Shown here piece after piece: positions 1 to 23,834 of a stretch of DNA of 33,889 nt. A program made the position numbers and the translations under genes. Location: positions 1 to 33,889 of the forward strand of contig QKHZ01000283.1 of NCBI GenBank assembly GCA_003249795.1, in the 5' to 3' direction. The notes under the pieces are model-generated. The model ran no database searches, was not told where the DNA came from, and saw only the letters and a list, made by a program, of their open reading frames with translations. Numbering within the stretch: position 1 is the stretch's first letter; each line of letters begins with the position of its first letter. Source of the DNA: a bacterium. Lineage in GTDB: Bacteria; Planctomycetota; SZUA-567.

Positions 1-1332
1 GGCAAGGGCAAGGTCGTGCATCTGGGGCTGAAGTTCTGTAATGTCCCGATCTGGTGGGGCGGAACGCAGATCACGAAGAAACTGTTTAATGATTTGTTCC
101 ATTCCTTCGGTGTCAAACAGCTTCCGGCGACGGTTTGGGATTCGAAGGAAGTGATCTTGCGGCACTATGTCAGTAACAACGGGCTTGCGGATGTTTGGGT
201 TGCTTGGAACCAGACGGACGAGACGGTTGAGACGGTTGAGACGACGATTGATTTTGCTGCCGGTGTTGCTCCAGCGTTTTTGCACGACATCGTCACAGAG
301 CAGGACCAGCAGCTGACAACCGACAGTGAAGGAACGTTCATGCCGCTGTCTCTGCAGCCGCGTCAGACACGGATGTTTGTCTCGCCGCGTTCTGAGTATG
401 TCAATGCCGCAGCAGACTGGTTCAAACTGCAGCGCGGTTGGTGGCGTGGCGGGATGCCTGCAAAAGCGGGGATGAAAAACCAACGCCCGATTCCCGATTC
501 GATAACCTCTGCGACGGTAAAAGAAATCAATACCGGATGGCAGCGTCATCTTGTAGGCGAAACCGACGATCCGGCGGCGCTGCTTGCGGATGGCGCTGAA
601 GGGTGGAGCGCTGTGGACTTGCGTTCGTATCTGATTCCGGAAGAGGTGCAGGTAAAACGCATTTTACTGCGCAATACATTTACCGTTCCTACTGAGTGGA
701 GTAATGGCGAAATCCGGTTATGGATCAGTAGCTGGAACAGCGATACGTTTGTGGGTGAAGCTGAGGTGAAGCTGGATGGTGTTGCTGTGAATCCTGACGA
801 GCATACCGGCGGTGTTCGCGGCAGTCCTCTGCTGGAAGCAGGCAGTAAGCACTCGCTAACATTTTTAGTGGACGCGCGCAATGACGTTGTCGGCATCCGC
901 GGGAGTGTCTGGCTTGCGTATCGTCCTGCTCCTGCCGAGTCACTGGACTTGTCCGGTTCCTGGTTGCCGTCTGTTGACGGGCTGGAGCGGGAGAATGCGG
1001 TGGTCTTGCCCGGAGAATTTGCGGGGATGATGGCAAAACGGACGGTTACGGTTCCCGCGTCGTGGCAGGGCAGCAAGGTTTATCTGCGGATGGAGTCGAG
1101 CCAGAATCTGATCGGGACAATAGTCAATGGCCATTGGGTTCGCCGCCATCATCACATGCTTGGTAATATCACGTTCTTGAACATTACGCCGTGGATCAAG
1201 TTCGGGCAGGAGAATGAAATCGAAATCTCGGCGCTGCGCAGTGCGAAGAAGAATACGGTTGCGATGATCCGTCTCGACCGGTATGAACAGCCGCCGGAGA
1301 ATGTCAATATCAAGACTGTGGAACCTCGCTAG
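1..1332 (+). CDS. C-terminal part of a large glycoside-hydrolase-like protein (5' end outside window)
   Basis: The reading frame is open from base 1 (GKGKVVHLG...) to the stop at 1330-1332, so the 443 residues seen are the C-terminal part of a longer protein. The first residues match the end of a beta-galactosidase-trimerisation/GATase-like domain (compare IGKGRVIALG in the next gene). Two beta-sandwich, GH2 sugar-binding-like modules follow, and the last carries the motif VRRHHHM followed by a FGQENEIEIS strand. The next gene has the same order of modules and the motif VRRHHHN, so the two are tandem paralogues. Only 63 nt separate this stop from the next start and no terminator is visible between them, so they are probably co-transcribed. 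A secreted enzyme on plant or host glycans is inferred from the paralogue; the catalytic part is outside the window. Confidence 0.7.
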   Translation, partial: GKGKVVHLGLKFCNVPIWWGGTQITKKLFNDLFHSFGVKQLPATVWDSKEVILRHYVSNNGLADVWVAWNQTDETVETVETTIDFAAGVAPAFLHDIVTEQDQQLTTDSEGTFMPLSLQPRQTRMFVSPRSEYVNAAADWFKLQRGWWRGGMPAKAGMKNQRPIPDSITSATVKEINTGWQRHLVGETDDPAALLADGAEGWSAVDLRSYLIPEEVQVKRILLRNTFTVPTEWSNGEIRLWISSWNSDTFVGEAEVKLDGVAVNPDEHTGGVRGSPLLEAGSKHSLTFLVDARNDVVGIRGSVWLAYRPAPAESLDLSGSWLPSVDGLERENAVVLPGEFAGMMAKRTVTVPASWQGSKVYLRMESSQNLIGTIVNGHWVRRHHHMLGNITFLNITPWIKFGQENEIEISALRSAKKNTVAMIRLDRYEQPPENVNIKTVEPR

Positions 1333-1395
1333 TTTCCAGAATCAATGCTGATGAGAATTTACAGAAAAAGTTTATACAGAAAAGGAGTGCAGCGA

Positions 1396-4300
1396 ATGCA
1401 GAAGCGGACAATGAAAGATAAAGTACAACCGGTGTTTTTGCATGTGCCGTATGTGTCGCTGTTTTGTGCGGTTTGTTTTTTCCTGATGCTTGCGGGGGCG
1501 GTTCACGCGGAAGAGTGGGCAAGCCGTTCGACGACGCTAGCGATCAGCGCGACGTTGCGCGGATACGGACAGGTGCGGACGGTGCGCGTTGACTGGGCCG
1601 CGGCTTCGGGCGAAGGACTTGTTGAGGAGCAGTTCTATTGCACGACAAATGAGAATGCGCAGACGCTGGGCGGGAAGTTTCTTGCCGATTTGGATATGTC
1701 GTACAAAACAGAAAATATCATGCTGGGCAAATCCGTGTCTGCACGGAAAACGTTCAGCGGATCATGTTATGTTGTTTGTCTGCAGGGCTCGCTTGTGCGG
1801 ATTTTCTGTGCCGAATCTGGAAAAACACTGACCGACTTTTTTGCCTCTCATGCAGAGTTGAGCGCGGGAGCAACGGTGCAGGCGAAGTACCCGACGTATC
1901 TGGATCGTTTTGACCGCTACGGCTGGGGCGTGTATGGTCTTGCCGGATTCTCAAACTTTCACAGCTGGATGAAAAAAGCGGATGGGGAAAATACGTTCAA
2001 AGATCCGTATGAGGACTTTGACTTTCTGGCAAAGCAACGCATCCGTTTTGAACCTTGGCTTGATCCGGCCGGATTTGACGATAGCGACGGCGTTCTGAAA
2101 AATACCGGAACCGATTGGAAGATGGCTGCAGCGCACAAGGCGGGTCTGCCGGTATCGTTTCGTGTCTACGGTTCTGAAGGCGGTGCAGACTGGACGGCGC
2201 GGCGTTTTCCGGAATACATGGAAAAACCGGCTTCATTTCTGCAGAGCGGCTGGCATGGCGGCAACCTGTTCTTCAAGGCGAGTCCTCACCTGAGCTGGTA
2301 TGATCCTGATCCGCAGCGGTACATGGCCGTGCAGGTGATGAAGATGATGAAAGCGCATGTGAATGATGATCTGGTGATGGGCTGGATGCATCCGCACGGG
2401 GAGCTTGCGCATGACACGTGGTATGATTTGCACGACGATTATTCCAACGCTTCGCAAAAGAGCTGGGTTCGCTATCTTCATGAAAAGAATGTGACGCTGG
2501 AGGAAGTGTCCGCTCTTGCTGGTCACAGGCTTGTGTCATGGGATGAAGTGACGGTGCCGGAGTTCGCCAGCTTTGCAGGCTTGCCGCAGCGTGTGTTGTC
2601 GCTTGAGGGCAAGTGGCAGTACCGTTCTGAAAATACGCCGGAAAAGATGGATGCCGGATGGCTGGCGTTGCCGAAGGAAGAACGATACGAGGGCGTGGGC
2701 GGAAAATGGTGGGATAATGCCGAGAATGCGTCGGAGTGGAACACGGTTCACATGCCCGGAGGCGAAGCGATTTATGCGATTCTTGGCGGCAAGAAAAATA
2801 TGTCGGCGGGCACATGGTTCCGTCGCCACTTTACATTGACAAAATCGCAACTAACGAAAACGCCGGTGTATCTGTATTGGTTCCCGATCAGCCACGTTTC
2901 TCTTCACAGCGGCGATCACCGCATGTACCACGGTGTTTATATTAACGGTCAGAAAGCGGGGGAAGTCGGTAGCTGGGGTGCGCTCGATGTCAGTAAGTTT
3001 GTTGCCGTTGGCGACAATAAAATCGCGCTTCATCTATTGGGTGGCATGTGGAACGGGCGGATCTTTTTGTCGACAGAAAAACCTGCGGCGTTTCCGTATT
3101 TTGGAAAAGAAAAGAACCGCCTGTTTCTGTTGTGGACGGAGTGGCACAAACAGGTCAAGTACGACGCGTGGGCCGATATTCTCGACGGCATGCGGCAGGT
3201 CGATCCGAATCGTCCGATCAAATTCATGGCGCCGATCCGTTTTGGCGAAGATCTCTGGCTGAAGCTGGCGCATGACTACGGCGGCTGGGGGCACTTCACC
3301 GGCGAAGGTATGTGGTTCTTTCCCTGGTACAAACGCTATGGATTTCTCTATGACCTGCCCGCGAGCAGTGAAACGGCGGGACCTGCTGACAGTCTTACGG
3401 ACCAGTTCAATTCGTTCCGCCGCACGTTCATGGCGGGGCTTAACGGTCACGATCCGGTGTTCCTCGCGCAGACCTATACGCGTAATCCGGAGCTGCGCAA
3501 GTTCTGGATCGAGCACGACACTGTACTCAAGCGCATGGGCAAGTATGATCTTGACGGCCCGCAGGTTTTGATTTACCGCAGCAGTTTTAATACGGGCGGC
3601 TCCCCTGTCTCTTCGCCGTATCCGGAGCTGGGACAGTCCACGCGTCTGGTGCAGTCGCCGTGGAACTGGGACATCGGCCGCGGTACGCTGCAGAGACTGG
3701 GGCACAGCTATCTGTACCTTGATGACGGCGGTGTGGCTGACGGCAAGATGACCGGCTACAAGTTGATGGTCGACTGTGGCAATGAGACGATCGATCCGGA
3801 GACGATCGTACAGATCCGCTCGTGGATTGAAAACGGTGGCATGTTTGTGGCGTTGCCGTTCACCGGCCGTAACACGCGTCTTGAACCGGATGTGTGGCCG
3901 GTCGAAAAATTGACCGATTGCAAGGTTGCAAAGCTCCGCATTCCGGGTAAAGGCAAGGTGACGATTCTGCCGGATAACGGTGTCTTTACTACTCTTGCCG
4001 GAAAGACGTTTGATGATGTCGGTCGCTGCCTTGACTATGTCGGTAATAATTATGATGTCATCAACGCCGTTCTTGAGCCGGGAAAAGATAGCAAGGTGCT
4101 CGCGAAATATGAAGACGGCAGCGCGGCGATTGTCGAGACCAGAATCGGCAAAGGCCGTGTGATTGCGCTGGGGTCAACATTCTGGCGTAGCGCACAGGAC
4201 CGCAACGGGGTGTGGTGGCCGGAAGGTATTGAGGCAGAGTTTGTCTCTGACCTGTTTGATGGTCTTGGATTCGGTAAGCCTGAGTTTGCAAGTTCCGATT

Positions 4301-5517
4301 CCCTTGTCTGGCCGCAGCCGTATCGCAGTAACAACGGCCTTGATCATGTGTGCGTTCTTGTCAGTTGGAATGAAGAGAAGGATGTGACTTCAGAGATTAC
4401 GGTTCGTCTGGCGAAGAAACCGGCCGCGATAGTCTGTTATGGAATTGACGGCGTGAAAGAACTGCCGTTTACCTATGCTGAGGGGCAGGCCGTTGTCAAG
4501 GTTGGGATGCCTGCACGCGAGGTGAAAGTGTTGTCGGTGCAGACGGAAAAACCGGATGATGCGCTCAGCCACTGGTGGTCGTATCAGCAGAAGATGTGGC
4601 ACACGCTTGCCGAACCGCATGTGGACTTCACGCCGTACACGCAGGGTAAGTGGGCAGATCCGGCGATTGACCTTGCGCGTGGTGCGAAGGCGACGGTCAA
4701 GAAACCCGCCGGTGACTGGATGGCTGCGGGCTTTGACGACAGCAAGTGGGATGACGTTTGCCTCGGCGTTCTGAATGCCAATGACAATATCCCGAAGAAG
4801 AGCGATGTCTGGGTGCGCAAGTCGTTCACGGTTCCGGATGAGTGGCTGCAGAGCGGGCGGACGTATCTGATCAGTGGCGCGTGGGTCGGCCCGCATTATC
4901 TTTCGTCGACAAGCATGTATTTTAACGGTGAAGAAATGCACGGGCCGTTGCGGACGGTTTATGGCAAAAGCAGTATTCCGGTTTTCAAACGGGATATTAC
5001 AAAGCTTCTGCAAGACGGAGCGAATGTCGTTTCGTTTGCGATTCAGGGGGACTTTGATTATCAGGGCTTTGCCGGAAACGTTTATCTTTACCATCGCGAC
5101 GCACCGCTTCGTTCAATCGATCTTGCCGGGACGTGGGACGCGCTTGATGCGTCCGGAAAGCCTGTTGTCCTGACGCTGCCGTCGGAGAAAACCGTCAGCG
5201 GCAATATGCCGAAGCGGACGATCCGGATTCCGGCAGAGTGGGAAGGCAAGTATCAGATCCGTGTGAGACTTGAAGGTGGCAAGCAGTCGACGATCGGCGT
5301 GTTTGTGAATGACTATATGGTTCGCAGACATCATCACAATCTGACCGCAGGCGCGGATCTGGATATTACAAACCGCTTGCGTTTTGGAGAGGACAATGAG
5401 ATTCGTCTGTCTGGGGCGATGGAGTGGCACGAATTGCATCTGGCAGAGGCACCGAATGGCAAGGTTGATTCATGGAACTTGACCACAATCCGGCTTGAGC
5501 TGTTTCCGGTCAAGTAA
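1396..5517 (+). CDS. Very large secreted glycoside-hydrolase-like protein (GH42/GH2-like modules)
   Basis: This is a 1373-residue protein. The ATG at 1396 is chosen because AAAGGAG (1381-1387) lies 8 nt upstream; the frame itself extends back to 1345. Residues 1-38 are a signal peptide (basic start, hydrophobic core, cleavage after AVHA), so it is exported. After a TIM-barrel-like N-terminal half with a GEL motif near residue 335, an inserted beta-sandwich (SLEGKWQYR, then FRRHFTL) is followed by more barrel-like sequence. A GATase-like segment lies near 790-900 (IRSWIENGGMFVALP), as in GH42 trimerisation domains. Two C-terminal beta-sandwiches (about 1070-1230 and 1240-1373) end with VRRHHHN. 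The family is recognised only in outline, and the nucleophile and acid/base residues cannot be assigned by eye. It is paralogous to the gene upstream and last in its transcript (hairpin at 5561-5588). An uncharacterised carbohydrate-active enzyme is the safest call. Confidence 0.72.
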   Translation: MQKRTMKDKVQPVFLHVPYVSLFCAVCFFLMLAGAVHAEEWASRSTTLAISATLRGYGQVRTVRVDWAAASGEGLVEEQFYCTTNENAQTLGGKFLADLDMSYKTENIMLGKSVSARKTFSGSCYVVCLQGSLVRIFCAESGKTLTDFFASHAELSAGATVQAKYPTYLDRFDRYGWGVYGLAGFSNFHSWMKKADGENTFKDPYEDFDFLAKQRIRFEPWLDPAGFDDSDGVLKNTGTDWKMAAAHKAGLPVSFRVYGSEGGADWTARRFPEYMEKPASFLQSGWHGGNLFFKASPHLSWYDPDPQRYMAVQVMKMMKAHVNDDLVMGWMHPHGELAHDTWYDLHDDYSNASQKSWVRYLHEKNVTLEEVSALAGHRLVSWDEVTVPEFASFAGLPQRVLSLEGKWQYRSENTPEKMDAGWLALPKEERYEGVGGKWWDNAENASEWNTVHMPGGEAIYAILGGKKNMSAGTWFRRHFTLTKSQLTKTPVYLYWFPISHVSLHSGDHRMYHGVYINGQKAGEVGSWGALDVSKFVAVGDNKIALHLLGGMWNGRIFLSTEKPAAFPYFGKEKNRLFLLWTEWHKQVKYDAWADILDGMRQVDPNRPIKFMAPIRFGEDLWLKLAHDYGGWGHFTGEGMWFFPWYKRYGFLYDLPASSETAGPADSLTDQFNSFRRTFMAGLNGHDPVFLAQTYTRNPELRKFWIEHDTVLKRMGKYDLDGPQVLIYRSSFNTGGSPVSSPYPELGQSTRLVQSPWNWDIGRGTLQRLGHSYLYLDDGGVADGKMTGYKLMVDCGNETIDPETIVQIRSWIENGGMFVALPFTGRNTRLEPDVWPVEKLTDCKVAKLRIPGKGKVTILPDNGVFTTLAGKTFDDVGRCLDYVGNNYDVINAVLEPGKDSKVLAKYEDGSAAIVETRIGKGRVIALGSTFWRSAQDRNGVWWPEGIEAEFVSDLFDGLGFGKPEFASSDSLVWPQPYRSNNGLDHVCVLVSWNEEKDVTSEITVRLAKKPAAIVCYGIDGVKELPFTYAEGQAVVKVGMPAREVKVLSVQTEKPDDALSHWWSYQQKMWHTLAEPHVDFTPYTQGKWADPAIDLARGAKATVKKPAGDWMAAGFDDSKWDDVCLGVLNANDNIPKKSDVWVRKSFTVPDEWLQSGRTYLISGAWVGPHYLSSTSMYFNGEEMHGPLRTVYGKSSIPVFKRDITKLLQDGANVVSFAIQGDFDYQGFAGNVYLYHRDAPLRSIDLAGTWDALDASGKPVVLTLPSEKTVSGNMPKRTIRIPAEWEGKYQIRVRLEGGKQSTIGVFVNDYMVRRHHHNLTAGADLDITNRLRFGEDNEIRLSGAMEWHELHLAEAPNGKVDSWNLTTIRLELFPVK

Positions 5518-6803: not shown

Positions 6804-7685
6804 CAGCGGGCATTCGCGATCCCTATGGGCGCATCCTTCTTCCGAAAAAACGCAGGAAGTTCTGTTGATATTCGATTCAGTGGTTATGCTTCAATGGGCG
6901 ACAAGGCTTCATTGAACTGACATAATGCCGAAATATTAGATGATTTCCGATCAAAATTGATTCACTTTTCAGACCTTTTATTTCGGCAGATCTTTCTGAG
7001 CTGAAATGGTCTTTCGGTTGTTTGCGATTCTCATAAATATCAGCATGTTGCTTGCTCATGTCATGCTTTCATTTTATCTGGGATTATGAGACATTTTTAT
7101 TGAGGCGATTGTGGCGTTGCTATTTGGTTGTCTGCTCCAATGTCGCAAAATAAGGAGCTGAATGTGGCTGGTTGTGGGGTAAATGGACACTTTCGATTCT
7201 TTTTTTATCTAATTTGTGGCAAGTAGTTCATTGTTTATTTTTGAGATCGGTTGTGAGGATAACCGATTTCCCCTGAGTTCTTCATCTTTATGTTAAATAA
7301 GATGTTACTTGAATGTTAAATGAAAGATATGTGGGCGAATATTGATGAGTGCTGTTTGGTGTATCGCATATCGATCGCGTGATCCGGAGTAAAGAATTCT
7401 GAAAGATAAAGGATGGTAACGATTTTGTACGTTTCGGCATGAATCTAACTTTACATGATACATTAAGTATTTGTTATGTTAGATATATGTGAGTTCCTTT
7501 GTTGGCGAAATTGGCGTAATGTCTCAATGCAGGGATATCGTATAGCGCAAAATCCTCCACATGTCTGTTTCGTCGATAAATACAGGGTTTTATTTTTGGA
7601 GTGTCTATCTGGATTCTTGAGTGTCTGTGGAAATTTCCACTTTGCGTTGATTGATGATTTACCACACCAAATGAACAATATATGC
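6804..7685. other. Long AT-rich stretch without a convincing gene
   Basis: About 880 bases hold no open frame with protein-like composition or a good ribosome binding site. Two inverted repeats stand out: ATCGGTT (7246-7252) with AACCGAT (7261-7267) around an 8-nt loop, and the perfect palindrome at 7627-7640. The short frame right after the DUF364 stop (GIRDPYGRILLPKKRRKFC) looks coding-like but lacks a start. The 3' part is probably the upstream control region of the PEP-CTERM gene. Confidence 0.5.
7627..7640. promoter_or_regulatory. Perfect 14-bp palindrome, possible operator
   Basis: GTGGAAATTTCCAC is a perfect palindrome 46 bp upstream of the -35 candidate of the PEP-CTERM gene. The size and position suit binding by a dimeric regulator. 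A chance occurrence in AT-rich DNA cannot be excluded and no regulator is identified. Confidence 0.3.
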
Positions 7686-7713
7686 TTGCATCATCTAAAA
7701 GTGTTGGTATGAT
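7686..7713 (+). promoter_or_regulatory. Sigma70-like promoter candidate for the PEP-CTERM gene
   Basis: TTGCAT (7686-7691), a 16-bp spacer and TATGAT (7708-7713) precede the chosen ATG at 7742. Transcription would begin near 7720, just upstream of AAAAGGAAA. If it is used, upstream in-frame starts at 7682-7715 cannot be the translation start. The promoter candidate before the sugar transferase (27651-27678) has the same -35 and spacer. Confidence 0.4.
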
Positions 7714-7741
7714 TATGAGAAGTAGAAAAGGAAATACTACG

Positions 7742-8983
7742 ATGATCAGAACACGAGTAAAGTTTGTTTTCGTTGCAGGCCTGATGCTTTTGGCAACAAT
7801 GTTTGTTTGTCCGAAGAGCTTTGCGGCTTCAACTTATACAATTGAAGATATTACCGACTCGTATACATCAGGAACGATTTCAACACTCAGCGCGATCAAT
7901 AATTCCGGCACGGTTGTCGGTGCGGCTACGACAAGTGGCTGGTGGTCAAGCTATGAAAATGCTGTGATTTACTCGAACGGATCGACAACTGATATCTATA
8001 CGGCCGTAAGTAATTCCCTTTTCGACTCGGTTGCAAATGACATCAACTCAGGCGGATCCATTGCGACAACAGCAACATATTATGGTTATGGGACGAGCGA
8101 ATCAGGTGGGTATGGTACTACTGGCGCATATGTAACCGATAGTTCCGGTACGACTTATCTTGGTACGCTGGGCGGAACCGATAGTGGCGCTGTGGGAATC
8201 AATGATGCCGGTGTGATTGTCGGGTGGGCTGACACCAGCAGCAATTCAACACATGCATTTATGTATGTAAACGGAACTATGGTTGATCTGGGCACGCTTG
8301 GCGGGTCAGATTCGGTGGCAAATGCGATCAACTCATCCGGCGTCGTAACAGGTTCTTCAGATGTCGTTACCACCGTGAACAATGGTGGAAATAATACGCA
8401 GCAAGGTCATGGTCATGGTCAGGGAAGCGGATCGAGTAATTGGACGACTGAGACGAATACCCATGCGTTTCTCTACGCAGATGGCGTTATGACCGATCTG
8501 GGAACCCTTGGTGGTGACAACAGCTACGGTATCGATATCAACGACAGCGGTCAAGTGGTCGGGTACTCGGATGTGAGTAATACAGAACAACACGCTTTCT
8601 TGTATGACGGCGGTACGATGATCGACCTCGGAACCCTTGGCGGTTCTACAAGTCAGGCACTTGGAATTAACGAAAGCGGTACGGTTGTTGGTTGGTCGAC
8701 CGACTCAAGTGGTAGTTCAACAGCGTTTGTTTATCTTGACGGTACGATGATCGATCTGAATACGCTTCTGAGTGATTCGATTACCGGTTGGGATTTGCAA
8801 TACGCCTACGCGATTAATGACAGCGGCCAGATTATCGGATTTGGAACTTACAACGGTCAGGTTCGTGCGTTCCTCCTGACGCCGGTTCCGGAAGCGGGTG
8901 AATGGGCGATGATCTTCCTCGGGCTTGGATGCGTTGCTTACTATGCACGCCGCAAAAAAATGGCGCTTCAACTCGCGAGCTGA
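7742..8983 (+). CDS. Secreted HAF-repeat protein with PEP-CTERM-like sorting tail
   Basis: This is a 413-residue exported protein. The ATG at 7742 is preferred because AAAAGGAAA lies about 8 nt upstream and a promoter candidate ends at 7713. Residues 1-28 form a signal peptide (cleavage after SFA). The body has about six HAF-type repeats, with units such as AINDSGQVVGYSD, HAFLYDGG and MIDLGTLGG, predicted as beta-propeller-like surface repeats. One repeat is split by a Gly/Asn/Gln/His-rich insertion (near TQQGHGHGQGSG). The last 34 residues are a PEP-CTERM-type tail: VPEAGEWAM, a short hydrophobic helix, then ARRKK. The motif is PEA rather than PEP. Such tails are cut by exosortases in the inner membrane before export to the surface or matrix. 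The exosortase gene converges on it across a shared terminator, so it is the obvious cargo. It is the only PEP-CTERM protein in the window. Confidence 0.88.
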   Translation: MIRTRVKFVFVAGLMLLATMFVCPKSFAASTYTIEDITDSYTSGTISTLSAINNSGTVVGAATTSGWWSSYENAVIYSNGSTTDIYTAVSNSLFDSVANDINSGGSIATTATYYGYGTSESGGYGTTGAYVTDSSGTTYLGTLGGTDSGAVGINDAGVIVGWADTSSNSTHAFMYVNGTMVDLGTLGGSDSVANAINSSGVVTGSSDVVTTVNNGGNNTQQGHGHGQGSGSSNWTTETNTHAFLYADGVMTDLGTLGGDNSYGIDINDSGQVVGYSDVSNTEQHAFLYDGGTMIDLGTLGGSTSQALGINESGTVVGWSTDSSGSSTAFVYLDGTMIDLNTLLSDSITGWDLQYAYAINDSGQIIGFGTYNGQVRAFLLTPVPEAGEWAMIFLGLGCVAYYARRKKMALQLAS

Positions 8984-9106: not shown

Positions 9107-9140
9107 AACCGGAGCAGATCTTATTCTGCTCCGGTTTTTA
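9107..9140. terminator. Strong bidirectional terminator between convergent genes
   Basis: A perfect 12-bp stem, AACCGGAGCAGA (9107-9118) with TCTGCTCCGGTT (9125-9136), has a 6-nt loop. Five T residues (9135-9139) follow on the plus strand and an AT-rich tract on the minus strand. The stop codon of the minus-strand exosortase gene (9121-9123) lies in the loop. It would end both the PEP-CTERM transcript and the 18-kb polysaccharide operon. Confidence 0.85.
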
Positions 9141-10824
9141 TATTGGTGTCCCCTTCCTGTGGGATCGTATAACGGAACGTATGAAGAAAATCGGTGAGAG
9201 TTTTTTCGTCATCAGCAATGACTCGGAAGAGAAACCATTGTCGGTCGGTCTGATAAAGTTGATTCAGCCAGCCGGACAACACCATTTGCGAATAATTTGA
9301 TTGAACAATATCCCCATTTGTGAACCAGTATGCCAGTTGGCAGCTTGTGCCGTTTCGCGTCATTGTGAGTCTGCTGATCTCTCCAATCTTTGTGGCGCTA
9401 TTAATTGCAGAAGTCTGTTGATGCCGGTTGTCAATGGCCCAACCTTGTGAGGTTAGGCAATACTCCGGAGGGTGATTGCGGCGCAGATCTCCATCGGATG
9501 CACTGACGAGAATCATGATTGTTTTTTTTCCGAGCTGGTATTGCCGTGACCAAAGCGCTTCTGCTCGGAACTCCGTTGACTGCATGACGGGAGTGTCTTT
9601 ACCAATCCAATCTCCTTGCAGGTAACTGATGGTCAATTCTGGTAACGAGGAATACTCGCCTTGTTCATGGACTGTCGGAGTGATTGTTTGTTGAAGAAAC
9701 AGCACGACGGCTGTCATCGAAATCAGAATTACGCGGAAATAGATAGAGCCGGAACCGGAAGATGTATCCGGTTGCAGTTCGTGTTCGCGTTTGGGTGAAA
9801 GAAGATATGCCGCAGCGAGTGCGACCGCACCAGCTCCTATTCTTATTCCAAGGTTATTATTGCTGGTGGAAAACCACAAAAAATCATCGGTCAATTCCCG
9901 AAGCTGTCGGGCAACCGAAGGAAATCCGAGGAATGCAACAAAGCCCAGACAAAAGAAAGCGGGAAGGATATGACGTCCTTTCAAAAAAGATAAGAATGCG
10001 CCCGTCCCAGCCAAAAGTGAAAATGCCAGAAGAAAATTGATCCCGGTAAAAATCGAAGCGCAGGCAATCAGCAGTGAGAATCCATAGAGTGTAGCGGAAG
10101 AAAGAAGCCGGATGTGTCTGGTCGGGGTTTTGTGGATGAGTGCTCCGGTGCAGAGTGCAGCGGCAAGGACGAAGAAAAGGCCAAGCCTATCGTCACGGTC
10201 ATATGCGTTTGCAGTCCAGGCCAGAATGCAGCGCGATAGAAACGGGATGTGAATGAAAAGAAACATCGCGATTGTCAGTTCAGGCAATGCGCTATGATTT
10301 TTGCTGTTGGATGGGGTTGTGGGCGATGCAAGAAATGCGAGGATTCTAAATAGGATTCCCATGGCCAAAATGAATGTGACGATGCCGACCAGTTCGTGCG
10401 AGAATGATCCGGGATAAAGGATCTCTGCGAAAAAACCGCAACCGGCTAGAAAAGCAATACGCAGGCTGTTGGTGACAATTGCAATCGGTAGCAGACAGGC
10501 AACAGCGAAGAAGCGCGAGGCTGCCGGAACTGACTGGTAAAGAAGGCACAGCAGGAGACCGCATGCAAACAGGACGCGCAACAGTGTTGAGCCGCTGCAG
10601 GCAGGCTCGACATCAAACTGGATGCCGGAATATTGCAAGGTTGTGCCCAAACGCGTGACGGGAATGCCTGCACAGTGAAGAGCGGCTTCAGCGATCACCG
10701 CAGATGCGTTGCGCATTGGAAGATTAACGATGGGCTCAATCGCCATCATCAGCAAATAAACCGCGATGACTGCAGCGAATGGAATCAGCTTTTTATACGG
10801 CGTGTGGTCTTGTGTCTGGTTCAC
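9121..10824 (-). CDS. Exosortase-EpsI fusion protein
   Basis: This 567-residue polytopic membrane protein starts at GTG 10824, overlapping the TPR gene stop by 4 nt (GTGA). The N-terminal part is an exosortase, the membrane cysteine protease/transpeptidase-like enzyme that processes PEP-CTERM proteins. The conserved triad is visible: Cys76 in EPACSGST, Arg122 in NSLRI and His143 in FSHELVG. About residues 175-375 add several further hydrophobic segments that a minimal exosortase lacks. The C-terminal part (about 375-560) is an EpsI/DUF3485-type domain with LQGDWIGKD and HPPEYCLTSQGW. Only about two membrane segments precede the Cys, fewer than in the common XrtA form. Exosortase-EpsI fusions are known, but I cannot place this one in a named subtype. 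It is the last gene of the polysaccharide operon and faces the likely substrate gene. Confidence 0.88.
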   Translation of the reverse strand: MNQTQDHTPYKKLIPFAAVIAVYLLMMAIEPIVNLPMRNASAVIAEAALHCAGIPVTRLGTTLQYSGIQFDVEPACSGSTLLRVLFACGLLLCLLYQSVPAASRFFAVACLLPIAIVTNSLRIAFLAGCGFFAEILYPGSFSHELVGIVTFILAMGILFRILAFLASPTTPSNSKNHSALPELTIAMFLFIHIPFLSRCILAWTANAYDRDDRLGLFFVLAAALCTGALIHKTPTRHIRLLSSATLYGFSLLIACASIFTGINFLLAFSLLAGTGAFLSFLKGRHILPAFFCLGFVAFLGFPSVARQLRELTDDFLWFSTSNNNLGIRIGAGAVALAAAYLLSPKREHELQPDTSSGSGSIYFRVILISMTAVVLFLQQTITPTVHEQGEYSSLPELTISYLQGDWIGKDTPVMQSTEFRAEALWSRQYQLGKKTIMILVSASDGDLRRNHPPEYCLTSQGWAIDNRHQQTSAINSATKIGEISRLTMTRNGTSCQLAYWFTNGDIVQSNYSQMVLSGWLNQLYQTDRQWFLFRVIADDEKTLTDFLHTFRYTIPQEGDTNIKTGAE

Positions 10825-13800
10825 TGTGCGGAGTCCTTGCTGTTATTAATATCATCAATGTTGTTCGTGTTCTTGCTGATCTTTTCTCGGATCGAACTGA
10901 TGCGGCTGTCCAGTGTGTCAAGGCTGGTCGGCAGTTTTTGGGATCGGGAGCCATCGCGGCAGCTTTCCAAGTCGGCCAAAGCTTGCGGCAACTTCCCTAA
11001 TGCTTCAAATGCAAGGCCACGGTAATAGAGCAGGCTGGCATTGTGTCGGGTAATGTGATCGGACTCCTGCAACAGTGTCAGGCATGTTTCATATTTATTG
11101 TAATGCATCAGCGCCGCCGCGTATGTTTCCATAAACGGAGGGATACCGGGACGGAGTTTGTTGGCTTTCTCTGCGGAAGAAAGAATTTCGTTTTCCGTTG
11201 CGAGACCACTTTGCAGGGAGACCCATGCAAAGTTGTTGAGAAGAACCGGATGGTCCGGATAGTGCATCAACGCTTTCTGATAGACCGAAACAGCTATATC
11301 AAGTTTCTTTGCAGATTCTGCGATCAGTCCAAGCAGTGTCCAATTCTCCGCTGCAAGGTCGGCTGCGGCGATATTGTCAAGAATTTCAGCCGACGGTGCT
11401 TGTGCCATTTTCAATAATGCCCACCGTGCTAGAACCCGCTTGATTTCATGATATTGCCAAAGCAGGTCAATTGCCTGCTGCAGCTTATTAGTGCGTTCAT
11501 AGAGCATCGACTGATAGAAAACAAAGTTTACTGGGTCAAGCGAAGGCTTCAAGTCTAGCAAAACCTCCTGTGCGTCAGCCATTTGTCCTGAGGCAATGAG
11601 CGCTTCAAGCCGGGCTCGTGCGGCAAGGGGGAAATCTGGATTGCGTTGTTGGAGTTCGTCAAGAGTATGAAGGGCTGTAGTATATTGCTTGTTTCCTGTG
11701 AGTGCGACGGAGAGCAGTAGCAGTGCAAGATCATCCGTTGGGTGTTGCGCCAGATATGGTTTGAGTACAACGGTGGCGGCCTCGAATTTTTTGAGTTGGA
11801 TCAGCGCCTGCGCCTTCATGATAATGGTGCCGGGAAGTGACGGCCGGAGCTCTTCAGCCTGAATGCAGTGCGTGATGACCTGATCAAACCGTTTGTCTGC
11901 AAGACAAATCCGTGCCAGAAGAAGATGGCCTTCGCCTGCTTTAGCCGGATCAGAAGTCATTTCTGTTGCTAATTTCTGTGCTTCGTCAGTACGTTCGGTT
12001 TCAAGTAGGATAAATCCGAGTCCCAGCGACGCGTCGGCGCGTTTCGGCGATTGTTCGATGATCTTGCGATACATCGTTTCCGCTTCAGGCGTTTTGCCGC
12101 CAACGCGTAGAAGCGCGGCATATTCACTTGCGACATTTGGATCATACGCAAAATCGCAGGCTTGTTTGTAGGCTGCCAGTGCTGCTTCTGTACGTCCAAG
12201 ACGGGAGAGGGCTTTTGCACGGACCGGGGCGACAAGTTCGGGTTTCAGCCCGCAGGTTTCAGCCTCCGAGAGGGCTTTTTCATACTCACCTTTCGCTATA
12301 AGAACAGACAGGCCGGATGAAATAATAATCGGATTCTCCGGATACTGTGCCGTAAGTTCGTCCATGATTTTCTGTGCAGCGTCAAACTTTCCGCGGGAGA
12401 CTTCCCACAGCCCTTCGCTGAGTTTTACGCTGGCGTCTTCAGGAAAGAGCGTGCTGAGAGCTTTACTGGTGGATTCGCTTTTTTGTGTTTCGCCGATTTG
12501 CTCTTCAAGTTTTCGTTGAAGCTGAAGTGAGCCACGCGAGTAGATTCCACGGTGATGCATTGCCACAAGTGCGTTAAGCGCTTCCTGCTTCTGGCCGTCA
12601 CGGATCAGCGCTTGCGCCAGTTCCATGGTTACCGTTGCGCTTCTATAAAATAGTGCGTTGCAGAGGCTGATTTGCTTATAGTTAGCAACGGCCTGCGAAA
12701 ATTTTTCGTCCTGATAAAGAGATCGCGCACAATAGAGTTGAAGGACCGGATTCGGAGTTGAAAGCATGCGGGCGCGGTTAAAATCATCGTGAAGCCCCTT
12801 GTTTTGCGTTGCGAACTTCTGAAGTGTTTTCAGAAAAATCTGTTCTGCTTCCAGATACTTTTCGTTTCCTGTGCAGAACGATAGGAGCCCTTCGATCTGT
12901 TCCAGTTTTCCTTGAGAAAAGTAGCCGTGTGCCAAAAGTAGACGCGCCTGATGGGCAATCTGCTTTGTCTGCCTTGCGTTTGTATAGGTTGTGTTCTCCT
13001 GCATCTGCACAAGGTCGTCGGGCTTGTTGTCGTTCGATTTCAGAACCGCATAAACGTCTGAAGAAGGGTTGATGATCGGTTGTAGAAAATTAACGGCAGA
13101 GTCAAAGTCACCGAGGGTGATGGCAAGTTCTGCCCGCTTTAACTGGATGACCGGATTGAGTCCGAGTTTCTCTTCCGCTTCCTGAAGGATCTGGGCCGCG
13201 CGTTTTCTATCGTCCTGAACGGCTAGAAGCACTGAGAGAATACAGTAGGACTCGACGTCAAACGCTAGGGTTTCCGGCTTGTTGCTGAATCGATCTGAGG
13301 CGGCTTTCAACTCACCTTGCCGGATCAGAGCCTGCGCGATTTTATTCATCAGTCGCGTGCTGGGGCTTTCGTGAAAGAGGTCGTTCCAGCGTTTGATCGC
13401 CTCATCAAACTTTCCGAATGCAAAGGATACGTCTCCGGAGAGTTCCTGTCGCTCATCGCCCTGCGGCATTTGCTCAACAAGTTCTTTGCCTTTTTCATAT
13501 TTGTCTGGTCCAGCTTTTTCTGACATCATCATCAGGAATAAAAAACATTCCCGATCCCGTTTGCCTGCATCCCATGCCTGTTGCGAGTAGGTGCGGCATG
13601 TGTCCGGATCACCAAGCATGAATGCCGTTTTGGCAGCAAGCCATGCGTAAGAAGTGTTTTGCAGTTCCATCGACGAGGCTTTTGCAAAGCAACGGTAGGC
13701 CTGCATGACATTGCCGTTTTGCAGGAATGTCTTACCGTGCTGGTGCCACTCTTCCGCCGTCGTCGTGTTCTCTGTGTCTTGCTTGAGGAAAAATGCAAGG

Positions 13801-13865
13801 CTGCCTGCGATGAGAACGACTGCAGCAAGCAGGATAATCCAGTGGCGGGAAGTAAATTTACTCAT
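10821..13865 (-). CDS. Large membrane-anchored TPR protein, PrsT-like
   Basis: This is a 1014-residue protein whose ATG at 13865 follows AAAGGAAA by about 8 nt. Residues 8-26 are one hydrophobic segment (IILLAAVVLIAGSLAFFL). The rest is soluble and helical, with many tetratricopeptide repeats showing the A-x-L/A-x-Y and P-x-x-P spacing, for example ASEYAALLRVGGKTPEAE and ASLGLGFILLETERTDEA. Size, repeat content and position match the long TPR proteins of PEP-CTERM/exopolysaccharide loci (PrsT type). Those are usually lipoproteins; here there is no lipobox Cys, so this one is a signal-anchored periplasmic protein. Such proteins are thought to scaffold assembly or export, but the role is not proven. 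The stop overlaps the exosortase start by 4 nt, so expression is probably coupled. Confidence 0.82.
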   Translation of the reverse strand: MSKFTSRHWIILLAAVVLIAGSLAFFLKQDTENTTTAEEWHQHGKTFLQNGNVMQAYRCFAKASSMELQNTSYAWLAAKTAFMLGDPDTCRTYSQQAWDAGKRDRECFLFLMMMSEKAGPDKYEKGKELVEQMPQGDERQELSGDVSFAFGKFDEAIKRWNDLFHESPSTRLMNKIAQALIRQGELKAASDRFSNKPETLAFDVESYCILSVLLAVQDDRKRAAQILQEAEEKLGLNPVIQLKRAELAITLGDFDSAVNFLQPIINPSSDVYAVLKSNDNKPDDLVQMQENTTYTNARQTKQIAHQARLLLAHGYFSQGKLEQIEGLLSFCTGNEKYLEAEQIFLKTLQKFATQNKGLHDDFNRARMLSTPNPVLQLYCARSLYQDEKFSQAVANYKQISLCNALFYRSATVTMELAQALIRDGQKQEALNALVAMHHRGIYSRGSLQLQRKLEEQIGETQKSESTSKALSTLFPEDASVKLSEGLWEVSRGKFDAAQKIMDELTAQYPENPIIISSGLSVLIAKGEYEKALSEAETCGLKPELVAPVRAKALSRLGRTEAALAAYKQACDFAYDPNVASEYAALLRVGGKTPEAETMYRKIIEQSPKRADASLGLGFILLETERTDEAQKLATEMTSDPAKAGEGHLLLARICLADKRFDQVITHCIQAEELRPSLPGTIIMKAQALIQLKKFEAATVVLKPYLAQHPTDDLALLLLSVALTGNKQYTTALHTLDELQQRNPDFPLAARARLEALIASGQMADAQEVLLDLKPSLDPVNFVFYQSMLYERTNKLQQAIDLLWQYHEIKRVLARWALLKMAQAPSAEILDNIAAADLAAENWTLLGLIAESAKKLDIAVSVYQKALMHYPDHPVLLNNFAWVSLQSGLATENEILSSAEKANKLRPGIPPFMETYAAALMHYNKYETCLTLLQESDHITRHNASLLYYRGLAFEALGKLPQALADLESCRDGSRSQKLPTSLDTLDSRISSIREKISKNTNNIDDINNSKDSAQ

Positions 13866-17049: not shown

Positions 17050-18024
17050 TTATGTATAAAGCCAGTCCCTGATCCATCGTTTGATTCGGGCTTTCGGGTT
17101 ATACTGCTCGATATCCATAAACACAGCCGACGGGTTTGTTGACAGGAGGCTTGCCACCCACGAGAACGTGGAGCTGCCCGGATAGATCAGATAGTCGCAC
17201 TTTGCAAGCAGATACATATCGACCAGCGCCTCGATTCCGTTTTCAGTCCGGTCGGGACATTCATTGTTCTGATGTAATGAATTCCCCGAGCGTGGGTACC
17301 ACTTGTCTGTCATGCACGCGCCGAAACGGTTTTGGAATATGGTGTTCAGCTCCGCATCGTCGGTTGCCAGAAATACGGTTGACTGCGGGATGCGTTTGCG
17401 CAGTGCTTCGACCCGTTTTAAAAACGGTTGAAGCCCGCAGGAACGATCCATATGGCGGATGTGGATGCCGATGGTCGGTGCGTGAAAGTTCTGATTGGCA
17501 AACGTGTCGACTTTCGTTTGAATTATGTCTGTGCAGATAAATTCCGAGAAAAGCCCGGAGAGAATGTTTGCGTTGGAGTGCTTTTTCAGTCGGGAAAACG
17601 CATCGGCAAAATGTCTTCGCAACGTTTTCATTCCATGCGTATACCTACAGAAAATGAGAACATCTTCTGCATAATTTGTGTTTCTGATATCGACGGAATA
17701 CTGTCGCAGACTGTCGCTGCCGTGTTGTCCGGGTGTGACAGATTCGACGCGGACTGATGCGGACTCGTCAAGATGCCCATCCCATATAGCTGGCGCGATG
17801 CGTTTTCCGCTGAAGTCTGGGACTTCTGAATGGATGTCATTGACATGGAAGAATGCGCCAAATGCGTTTTCATTCCGGTTCGAGTAAGTTTCATCTGACC
17901 AGTCGACGAAGACTTTTCTGCCGGTGATCCGTCCGTACAGGAGTCCGGTTGCAACCGACAGCAGACGGTTGCCCATTCCAGCTTTGCCTTTGATCAAAAT
18001 GCATTTTTCATTTTGTTCAGACAC
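17050..18024 (-). CDS. Fucosyltransferase-like protein (NodZ/GT23-type fold)
   Basis: This 324-residue protein starts most likely at GTG 18024, with GGAG 6 nt upstream; a TTG at 18030 is also in frame. It overlaps the methyltransferase gene by 8 nt. The N-terminus reads KGKAGMGNRLLSVATGL and TGRKVFVDWSDETY, as in NodZ/GT23 and related fucosyltransferases. The middle has IGIHIRHMDRS, the place of the family's HxRxxD motif for GDP-fucose, then VFLATDDAEL. The end reads CDYLIYPGSSTFSWVASLL. Transfer of fucose from GDP-fucose to the repeat unit is the best inference. No GDP-fucose synthesis genes are in the window. A 103-bp gap to the next gene shows no clear terminator. Confidence 0.7.
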   Translation of the reverse strand: MSEQNEKCILIKGKAGMGNRLLSVATGLLYGRITGRKVFVDWSDETYSNRNENAFGAFFHVNDIHSEVPDFSGKRIAPAIWDGHLDESASVRVESVTPGQHGSDSLRQYSVDIRNTNYAEDVLIFCRYTHGMKTLRRHFADAFSRLKKHSNANILSGLFSEFICTDIIQTKVDTFANQNFHAPTIGIHIRHMDRSCGLQPFLKRVEALRKRIPQSTVFLATDDAELNTIFQNRFGACMTDKWYPRSGNSLHQNNECPDRTENGIEALVDMYLLAKCDYLIYPGSSTFSWVASLLSTNPSAVFMDIEQYNPKARIKRWIRDWLYT

Positions 18025-18700
18025 GCTCAACTCCAGACTGAAGCGTGTACTCTTCAGCTTTATTTCCGACGACGATTATCTGAGTTGCCAAAAACTCGCG
18101 CAGGATGCCCAAGCTCATCCGGTTGATCAGCTTGTCTCTGCGACGAAGGATTCTATAGTCAACATGACACTGTTCGAGTCCGCATTCGGAAAACCAACGC
18201 GAAACCATTTTTCGTGTAGTCAGCCGGATGTGTGTGCGGTCTAGGATTCCTGCATTTGTATATTGTATTTCGCCCTTGATCCAAAGCGAATGAAAAACAG
18301 AATAATGCCGGAAGTTCGGAACGCTAACAATTACGCGGCCGCCGGGTTTCAGAAAACGGGAGTATCCAGATATGATGCTTGTTGGATCCGGAATGTGCTC
18401 AAGTACGTCGGAAAAAATCAGGCAGTCGAATTGTTGGTCTGTAAGAATGGCGGAACAGTTTTCTGCACTTTCTGTGAAAACGGTCAGGCCGCGTGCGCGT
18501 GCGCGCTCTGCAGCTTCCGGTTGCGGTTCAATGCCGGTCACCTGAACGCCGCGCTTCACAAGTTCCGCTTCTGTCACTCCTCCTCCGCAGCCGACGGAGA
18601 GTACGTGTGTTGTGCCGTCGTCAATCCACACCAGCACGTCTTCACGTAGCCATTCGTAATATTGTTTGTTTATTGAGAGTTCGTTTTTTACGTCGTCCAT
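18017..18700 (-). CDS. Class I SAM-dependent methyltransferase
   Basis: This 227-residue soluble protein starts at ATG 18700, 16 nt after the ligase-like gene. It shows the standard order of a class I methyltransferase: motif I HVLSVGCGGGVTEAEL for SAM binding, an acidic residue after strand 2 (TGIEPQ), CLIFSDVLEHIPDP for motif II, and LKPGGRVIVSVPNFRHYS for motif III. It is related to the MetW/UbiG-like type common in O-antigen and capsule clusters, where the enzymes O-methylate sugars or cap chains. Its place among glycosyltransferases suggests methylation of the exopolysaccharide. The acceptor sugar is unknown. The 3' end overlaps the fucosyltransferase-like gene. Confidence 0.82.
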   Translation of the reverse strand: MDDVKNELSINKQYYEWLREDVLVWIDDGTTHVLSVGCGGGVTEAELVKRGVQVTGIEPQPEAAERARARGLTVFTESAENCSAILTDQQFDCLIFSDVLEHIPDPTSIISGYSRFLKPGGRVIVSVPNFRHYSVFHSLWIKGEIQYTNAGILDRTHIRLTTRKMVSRWFSECGLEQCHVDYRILRRRDKLINRMSLGILREFLATQIIVVGNKAEEYTLQSGVERV

Positions 18701-21798: not shown

Positions 21799-23817
21799 TT
21801 ATTTGATCGGGTTTAATACCCATGCGCCGATATTAGGTTTTCCGCTGCCGTGGTTCACGAACCCCGGAATAACTGTGCCGTTGTGCTGCAGGTTGGCTGC
21901 ACCGAGGCCTGTGTACATAAAGCCTCTCGTCGAGATCGGAATGATCCGAACCTGTCCTTGCCGTCCGGACTCCGCTGTGGGGAGTGTCGTGCTGAAGTTG
22001 CAGCTTGTTACGGTTACGCCGGATGGCAGCCCCGGGATCAGCGGTTGCCGTGTCATCTTCTCAAGAATGCAGTTGACAAACGAGACATTAACGGCTGTGA
22101 ATTTTCCGTCAATCTGATGGTCTTCGCGGAAGATCCACGATTGGCCAGGGTTGCTGATGTGTGCAAACAGGACGTTGACGCAGTCGGAACTCAGTTGGCA
22201 GAGTGTCGGTCCGCTGTCGCTGTTTTCGACCATGACATTGACAAACGCGCAGTTGGTGAATGAGCTCTTTTTGTGCCCGAAGAAAAAGTTCTGCGTCTGT
22301 CGGATACCGAAGGCGCTGACATTGTAGACGATGAGGTTTTCCATGTGTCCGAAATATTGGAACAGGTCGCTGTGGTGTTCCAGAAGTGTGCCGTCGACGG
22401 TATCGATAATGCTGTTGACGACAAATAATGAGTTCTGAAAGACGTCACCGGAAATTCGTCGTGCGGTGCAATTTCTCACCAGAGATTGCTCGACAAATCC
22501 GTACAGCATATTCTCTGCGATGCAGTCAGTGACATATGAACCGCCAATATACTGGAGTGTTCTGATCGGTGCTAAGTGCGGGGCTGGATGTTTTGCAAGC
22601 CAACCGGCCGAGTCTATCCAACGGCAGTGGTTAAACCAGACGTGCTGGTTGTTGTCAGGATAATATTGGCTGATGGTTTTGAAGTCAAAGGTTACTCCCT
22701 GCCAGCGCAGTAACCGGATGTGCGGCAGGATTCGCGTCCGTTGCTCCGGAGCGATCAGTACCTCGCTACGGTCCAATCCCGGACGGGCGAGGATCGTGAT
22801 CCACCGGCGGTTGTTTGAAAGATTCGGGTTGATCCGTGCAGAGGTGAAAGGATACGTGCCTTTATCATTCAGGATTATTTTCCCGCCGTCATGAACCTTG
22901 TCGATTGCGGCGGCGATGGTCTTAAGCGGATGGGTTTCCGACCCCTCATTTTCGTCCGATCCGTTGGGACTGACGTAGAGTGGAAGATCCTGCGTGTGGC
23001 GCACAATCTGCAGCGGCAGTGGCGTGAGCTCGCGCGTGACGCCATTTACCGCGTATGCGGTCGCGCGTAGCGGAAGATCTCCATCCGGGAAATCATCTGC
23101 ATTGAGTGCAATCCAGTACTCAGACACACCCGTCCGTGGGTTAATTGAGGCTTCTTTGACAATAACCGGTTTTCCACCGAAGGCCGAGAACTCGACGCGG
23201 TCGATACCTGAATGGTGGAACGCAACTACGCCGATCCGGAACGTTCCTGAAATCGTCTGGAACGGAACCGCGTCCCATTGGGCAATCGTTTTTTCCGTGT
23301 TGCCCGCAGCATCCGGATTTTGCGTCACAATGGCGGTGCGGTCTGTTCCCGGAAGCAGCAACCGTTCGGGCGCGATTTTATCGGTTGCCGCAGATGGTAA
23401 TGCCGTGCTGCTGATCCCCTTTTGCATTGATGTGACATTGCGCAGAATATCAAGGTCCTTTTCGGTGAACTTGCCGTCCTGATCCAGATCTGTTACACTC
23501 AGGAAATTGTTGTCGTCGTGCAAAAGAGCGGTTTTGCGGAATGTGCGTTCGTCAACAAGCGCGTTGATGCATTCAGTAATATCTTGGTTGTCGACACTTC
23601 CGTCACGGTTGAAATCTCCCCGAACCAGCGGTGCGTTTTTCGCGATGAGGTTGGCTGTTTTGGTTTGCGGTTGCAGCAGGGATGTGGTTGCGGATGCAGA
23701 CGTTGTCCCCGATATTTCCTCCTGCTCCGTGTGCGGCAGGAACATGACCGTGAGGATCGTCACGGTTGCAAAAAGGAAAACGCCAGCGAAGATGAAGTTA
23801 CTATATCGTTCTTGCAT
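21799..23817 (-). CDS. Membrane-anchored dockerin and right-handed beta-helix protein
   Basis: This is a 672-residue protein. ATG 23817 has AAGGG about 10 nt upstream and is preferred to the GTG at 23838 that overlaps the preceding stop. Residues 8-27 form a single hydrophobic anchor (IFAGVFLFATVTILTVMFL). Residues 67-127 are a type I dockerin: two calcium loops, GDFNRDGSVDNQDI and TDLDQDGKFTEKDL, each followed by a helix. After a beta-rich linker, YVSPNGSDENEGSETHPLKT (281-300) opens a right-handed parallel beta-helix of the Nos/pectate-lyase-like type that continues to the end. Proteins of this fold bind, cleave or epimerise polysaccharide, as with alginate epimerases and lyases. In this operon an enzyme modifying the nascent polymer in the periplasm is plausible. 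No cohesin partner is visible in the window. Confidence 0.8.
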   Translation of the reverse strand: MQERYSNFIFAGVFLFATVTILTVMFLPHTEQEEISGTTSASATTSLLQPQTKTANLIAKNAPLVRGDFNRDGSVDNQDITECINALVDERTFRKTALLHDDNNFLSVTDLDQDGKFTEKDLDILRNVTSMQKGISSTALPSAATDKIAPERLLLPGTDRTAIVTQNPDAAGNTEKTIAQWDAVPFQTISGTFRIGVVAFHHSGIDRVEFSAFGGKPVIVKEASINPRTGVSEYWIALNADDFPDGDLPLRATAYAVNGVTRELTPLPLQIVRHTQDLPLYVSPNGSDENEGSETHPLKTIAAAIDKVHDGGKIILNDKGTYPFTSARINPNLSNNRRWITILARPGLDRSEVLIAPEQRTRILPHIRLLRWQGVTFDFKTISQYYPDNNQHVWFNHCRWIDSAGWLAKHPAPHLAPIRTLQYIGGSYVTDCIAENMLYGFVEQSLVRNCTARRISGDVFQNSLFVVNSIIDTVDGTLLEHHSDLFQYFGHMENLIVYNVSAFGIRQTQNFFFGHKKSSFTNCAFVNVMVENSDSGPTLCQLSSDCVNVLFAHISNPGQSWIFREDHQIDGKFTAVNVSFVNCILEKMTRQPLIPGLPSGVTVTSCNFSTTLPTAESGRQGQVRIIPISTRGFMYTGLGAANLQHNGTVIPGFVNHGSGKPNIGAWVLNPIK

Positions 23818-23834
23818 ACAAACAGAACCCTTGA

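Follow-up and report, generated by a model that had tools for sequence, protein, structure and literature searches.

An exosortase-EpsI fusion of planctomycetes and Lentisphaera-type bacteria with a probable circular permutation

Genes and features of the locus

We analysed the whole of a 33,889-nucleotide contig from a planctomycete draft genome (the window; GenBank QKHZ01000283.1), which carries the following features:

9121..10824, minus strand: putatively permuted exosortase-EpsI fusion, 567 residues, GTG start, with homologues of identical order
10327..10785, minus strand: catalytic (C-terminal) half of the exosortase, residues 14-166; PF09721 model positions 104-253; C-half profile 90 bits
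10597-10599, 10459-10461 and 10396-10398, minus strand: the triad Cys76, Arg122 and His143
9910..10287, minus strand: relocated N-terminal half of the exosortase (equivalents of transmembrane helices 1-5), residues 180-305, predicted from the N-half profile, hhalign, shuffles and Pfam matches in relatives
9796..9861, minus strand: predicted extra transmembrane helix, residues 322-343, from hydropathy, a helix at 321-342 in the structural model, and charge pattern
9664..9750, minus strand: residues 359-387, predicted by hydropathy and the model to anchor the EpsI part in the membrane
9172..9699, minus strand: EpsI/DUF3485 periplasmic domain, residues 376-551; PF11984 44.6 bits (cutoff 26.1)
10821..13865, minus strand: TPR protein (PrsT-like), first gene of the pair; TIGR02917 161 bits, below the cutoff of 312
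7682..8983, plus strand: HAF-repeat protein with the PEP-CTERM-like tail VPEAGEWAMIFLGLGCVAYYARRKK; TIGR02913 207 bits
13905..27262, minus strand: exopolysaccharide cluster with glycosyltransferases, a methyltransferase, an O-antigen ligase-like protein, a flippase and an SLBB export protein

The GTG start of the fusion gene overlaps the stop codon of the upstream TPR gene. A same-strand ORF lies directly upstream in 11 of the 12 loci of the family described below, and in 8 of the 10 others it is recognisably like the window TPR protein. On the other side, the tail of the HAF-repeat protein (8882-8956) gives the genome's best PEP-CTERM-like match (16.3 bits, below the Pfam cutoff) and is the sole plausible PEP-CTERM-like tail found in this genome; the adjoining HAF-repeat protein is likely the substrate. 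PEP-CTERM-like neighbours occur elsewhere in the family at L020 (LPEPGEW), L022/L108 of Lentisphaera marina (VPEPEE, in L108), L110 (VPEAQE) and L169 (VPEPAAF); the tails of L108 and L110 were read by eye, and a relaxed sorting-signal filter misses both.

Other genes of the window deserve mention. Within the exopolysaccharide cluster, a 679-residue protein (21799-23838, minus strand) scores 28 bits in a dockerin type I-like match (cutoff 22.9), and a NodZ-like fucosyltransferase (67 bits) lies at 17050-18030 (minus strand). Beyond the HAF-repeat gene, two consecutive large ORFs (16-5517, plus strand) have weak matches to glycosyl hydrolase family 2 sugar-binding domains.

The middle of the protein resembles the N-terminal half of an exosortase

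PF09721 matches residues 14-164 of the window protein at 81.3 bits (cutoff 25.7), covering model positions 104-253 only, and TIGR04178 scores 36.7 bits, above its cutoff of 23; with the triad, these matches mark the predicted protein as a member of the exosortase/archaeosortase superfamily. The triad lies where an earlier note, made from this DNA alone, had placed it (Cys76, Arg122, His143), and is invariant in all 12 family members. That note had counted about two hydrophobic segments ahead of the Cys, a fair reading because it is preceded by one clear segment (14-32) and by another helix, amphipathic in character, that the model places at 30-51. It had also described further hydrophobic segments between triad and EpsI, and these are present as about 160 residues of membrane helices, with hydropathy peaks at 183-201, 214-232, 249-267, 286-304 and 325-343 ahead of the EpsI anchor at 359-377. 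The EpsI model TIGR02914 scores 33 bits on the window protein, under its cutoff of 42.8, and exceeds that cutoff in L020 and L022. We detected no second exosortase and no second EpsI domain in the window genome (G000; a draft, about 82% complete, in 291 contigs).

Exosortases are membrane enzymes that cleave and sort proteins of the cell surface. Canonical exosortases have eight helices, in which an N-terminal half of five helices (the N-half) precedes a catalytic half of three helices that bears the triad. We built separate profiles of the two halves from 46 non-redundant ordinary exosortases. In the first six family members the catalytic-half profile fell on residues ~20-175 (69-91 bits) and the N-half profile fell behind it, at ~170-305, an order seen in just these six among the 68 exosortase ORFs then collected. 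Reversed middle segments reached at most 4.8 bits against the N-half profile, over a short part only, and in a background of about 400 kb (20 spaced 20-kb stretches of one genome plus several loci) the best non-exosortase multi-helix protein scored 7.4 bits with partial coverage. The Pfam model, which is independent of our alignments, matches twice and in swapped order in four relatives: in G236 at model positions 101-252 (3096-3551) and then 4-124 (3618-3983, 41.0 bits), in G017 at 105-251 and then 2-126 (29.9 bits, above the Pfam cutoff), and in the remaining two at 114-252 then 2-145 (23.9 bits) and 111-250 then 3-122 (20.8 bits). Profile-profile comparison (hhalign) of the family's middle segment with the N-half gave 97% (E 1e-10), against 0.9% for the reversed N-half and 3.5% for the catalytic half; reciprocally, a profile of the family's middle segment matches the N-half of ordinary exosortases at 26-32 bits.

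In the window protein itself the N-half match is of modest strength (9.5-14.8 bits), and the case rests on the family. None of 200 pattern-preserving shuffles reached the window score (14.8 bits; shuffle maximum 11.7), and six other members likewise exceed all shuffles that keep the hydrophobic pattern. Five divergent members score below some shuffles against the N-half, yet reach 52-79 bits against the family's middle profile. The YSHG motif of canonical exosortases is absent from the relocated half. The earlier note had suspected a rearranged topology, and the rearrangement we found is a specific one: residues 180-305 appear homologous to the exosortase N-half, with the order of the halves swapped, which argues for circular permutation and not for fusion of extra helices. 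The Pfam, profile, reciprocal and shuffle tests rule out helices foreign to exosortases. As judged from sequence, the order is thus very probably a circular permutation: catalytic half, N-half, EpsI.

The draft state of the genome invites the suspicion that a frameshift, misassembly or wrong start has cost the protein its N-half and that the later helices are unrelated. We give this almost no credence. Frameshift and truncation are excluded because stop codons close the upstream frames and the TPR gene lies there, and because eleven full-length homologues at other loci, one from a cultured isolate, share the order; the later helices, moreover, are N-half homologues.

Predicted topology and a possible route to permutation

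The moved half keeps the canonical helix count. With loop boundaries taken from hydropathy and an AlphaFold model, every predicted cytoplasmic loop in the 12 sequences has 17-24 Lys plus Arg per 100 residues and every predicted periplasmic loop has 1-6. Canonical N-halves show the identical charge alternation, and this positive-inside match suggests that the moved half keeps its normal membrane orientation. The extra helix at 322-343 would then return the chain to the cytoplasm.

Equivalents of the helix that joins the two halves (FP..FL.F..P) are found at either end: in several members the C-half profile starts inside this helix, and in several the N-half match extends to where the helix stops. 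Such an arrangement would result if an exosortase had been duplicated in tandem and the outer parts then lost, and we infer that the family arose in this way.

The AlphaFold model of the window protein is weak (mean pLDDT 65.6, pTM 0.47). Searches by sequence and by fold found no solved exosortase, Foldseek against the PDB returning nothing at E <= 0.001. For the EpsI part (9172-9699) the top Foldseek matches were SciW/EagT6, PA94 and DcrB (probability 0.84-0.99, E 0.06 or worse, from a low-confidence model). SciW and EagT6 are chaperones that bind transmembrane segments, a lead by which EpsI might hold the sorting-signal helix. The function of EpsI was stated as unknown when it was described (PMC1569441).

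A small family in PVC phyla

Homologues with the same order came from two genomes of the window's family or order, and a scan of 84,980 species genomes added two planctomycete MAGs and the cultured L. marina. With later searches the family grew to 12 members, whose open frames span 539-574 residues. Full-length homologues sharing the order are 24-29% identical, and one is encoded by the cultured strain Lentisphaera marina IMCC 11369. We found the family in 5 of 392 Planctomycetota genomes and, among 338 genomes of the L. marina phylum, again in 5; none of 398 genomes of the Psychromonas phylum holds a full-length match, the best match there spanning profile positions 22-179 only. In a catalytic-half tree of 92 exosortases the family forms one clade (support 98/93). 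The expectation that related fusions would be found in PVC genomes was borne out, all members found being from PVC phyla. We conclude that this is a small, previously unnamed family of predicted permuted exosortases in planctomycetes and Lentisphaera-type bacteria. Besides two such permuted exosortases, the L. marina genome (L138, L139, L140, L022) encodes an XrtZ and a short canonical exosortase.

Comparison with known exosortase subtypes

No NCBIfam exosortase subtype reaches its cutoff on the window protein. Canonical exosortase (PF09721/TIGR02602, XrtA type) with EpsI (TIGR02914) shares with it both halves, the triad, EpsI, an exopolysaccharide cluster, a TPR partner and a PEP-CTERM-like neighbour, but the window protein differs in its swapped halves, in having equivalents of the junction helix at either end and in an extra helix ahead of EpsI; TIGR02602 scores 55.6 bits against a cutoff of 105.55, over model positions 93-240 only, which leaves the protein outside the canonical eight-helix type. 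XrtD (TIGR04152) and XrtW (NF038142) also carry an EpsI-like region behind the exosortase in one chain. Their order, however, is N-half, catalytic half, EpsI, and the window protein scores far under their cutoffs of 400 and 425; XrtD is nevertheless the best-scoring named subtype (62 bits against 400). Against XrtT and the other named subtypes, too, the window protein stays below the curated cutoff.

XrtZ (NF050190, 460 positions) resembles the window protein in layout: its Cys, too, lies early (residue 81 in L139), with a membrane segment and then an EpsI-like end behind it. The earlier note had suggested a possible undescribed subtype, and this stands in so far as no NCBIfam subtype reaches cutoff, whereas the gross layout of early Cys, membrane segment and EpsI-like end is already present in XrtZ. 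The shared layout, and the presence of both types in L. marina, would fit the window protein being XrtZ or a diverged relative and nothing new. This is very unlikely: L139 scores 624 bits against NF050190 and the window protein 19 (cutoff 475), over residues 27-138 only, and none of 294 Planctomycetota genomes passes the cutoff. The middle of XrtZ, in contrast to that of the window protein, is not detectably an N-half, matching N-half profiles no better than shuffles do, and the catalytic-half tree places XrtZ apart from the family clade, at the end of a very long branch. We rejected XrtZ membership on score, coverage and the nature of the middle segment, and no defined subtype with the domain order of the window protein gave a full-length match. 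The XrtZ gene of L. marina follows one for a secreted-looking protein ending APGAPTPPIFALMFFIAAIIKTKFLGI, possibly the XrtZ sorting signal.

Short exosortases and two-gene relatives

The short exosortases XrtK, XrtM, XrtR and XrtS resemble the window protein in having a catalytic half with no N-half in front, but they stop just past it, where the window protein continues with the N-half and EpsI. Their curated models, like those of the archaeosortases ArtE and ArtF, are 150-166 residues long. Exosortases without any N-half therefore exist, and an N-half is not always required.

A second relevant arrangement occurs in the phylum of L. marina, where at 20 loci (adjacent ORF pairs; L113-L122, L124-L131, L134 and L137) an exosortase of ~280-360 residues adjoins a protein (open frame ~350-500 residues) consisting of an N-half plus EpsI. 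The partner's N-half is closely related to that of the permuted proteins (hhalign 99%, E 1.6e-18) and matches canonical N-halves (96.6%, E 5e-10), as the relocated half does; neither of two partners tested received an NCBIfam name above cutoff. By their N-half units, fused and split proteins group together in one clade (98/97), and monophyly of the fused units alone is compatible with the data (p 0.175). The N-terminal region of the two-gene exosortase itself is a degenerate N-half (83%, E 8.5e-6, partial coverage). In the catalytic-half tree, a sister relation of the family to these exosortases is unsupported.

These relatives allow a reading in which the catalytic half acts alone and the helices derived from the N-half serve as an EpsI accessory, for docking or substrate reception, so that the protein is permuted in sequence and not in fold. 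The short curated subtypes fit this, as do the two-gene loci, in which a gene of its own encodes N-half plus EpsI, next to an exosortase that has retained an N-terminal region, and the close kinship of the fused and split units. Against it, the moved half retains the canonical orientation and helix count, and because the exosortase's N-half is degenerate while the partner's is better kept, the two-gene loci equally suggest supply in trans. We consider an accessory role unlikely, though less so than XrtZ membership.

Discussion

The best explanation of the window protein is probably a circularly permuted exosortase fused to EpsI, and it seems fairly likely that the permuted fold works in cis. 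The relocated half would pack against the catalytic half, reaching it from the opposite side of the chain, and so restore the usual fold. The Cys-Arg-His centre, at the periplasmic face, would then cleave the PEP-CTERM-like tail of the HAF-repeat protein, with transfer to an acceptor assumed by analogy, and EpsI and the TPR partner may assist within a surface sorting system linked to exopolysaccharide. A wider reading, which we offer tentatively, is that the moved N-half rebuilds the fold in cis while the N-half plus EpsI protein of the two-gene loci acts in trans for an exosortase with a decaying N-half of its own; the fused and split forms would then illustrate how nature can permute and divide membrane enzymes.

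To our knowledge, natural circular permutation of a polytopic membrane enzyme has rarely been documented, and none of the open-access papers searched deals with exosortase together with circular permutation. From the swap one can see where the exosortase fold tolerates a cut; it also suggests that N-half and catalytic half can be separated as modules, and it ties EpsI physically to the N-half. Since the genome appears to have one such enzyme and one plausible adjoining substrate, the system is small enough for direct reconstitution.
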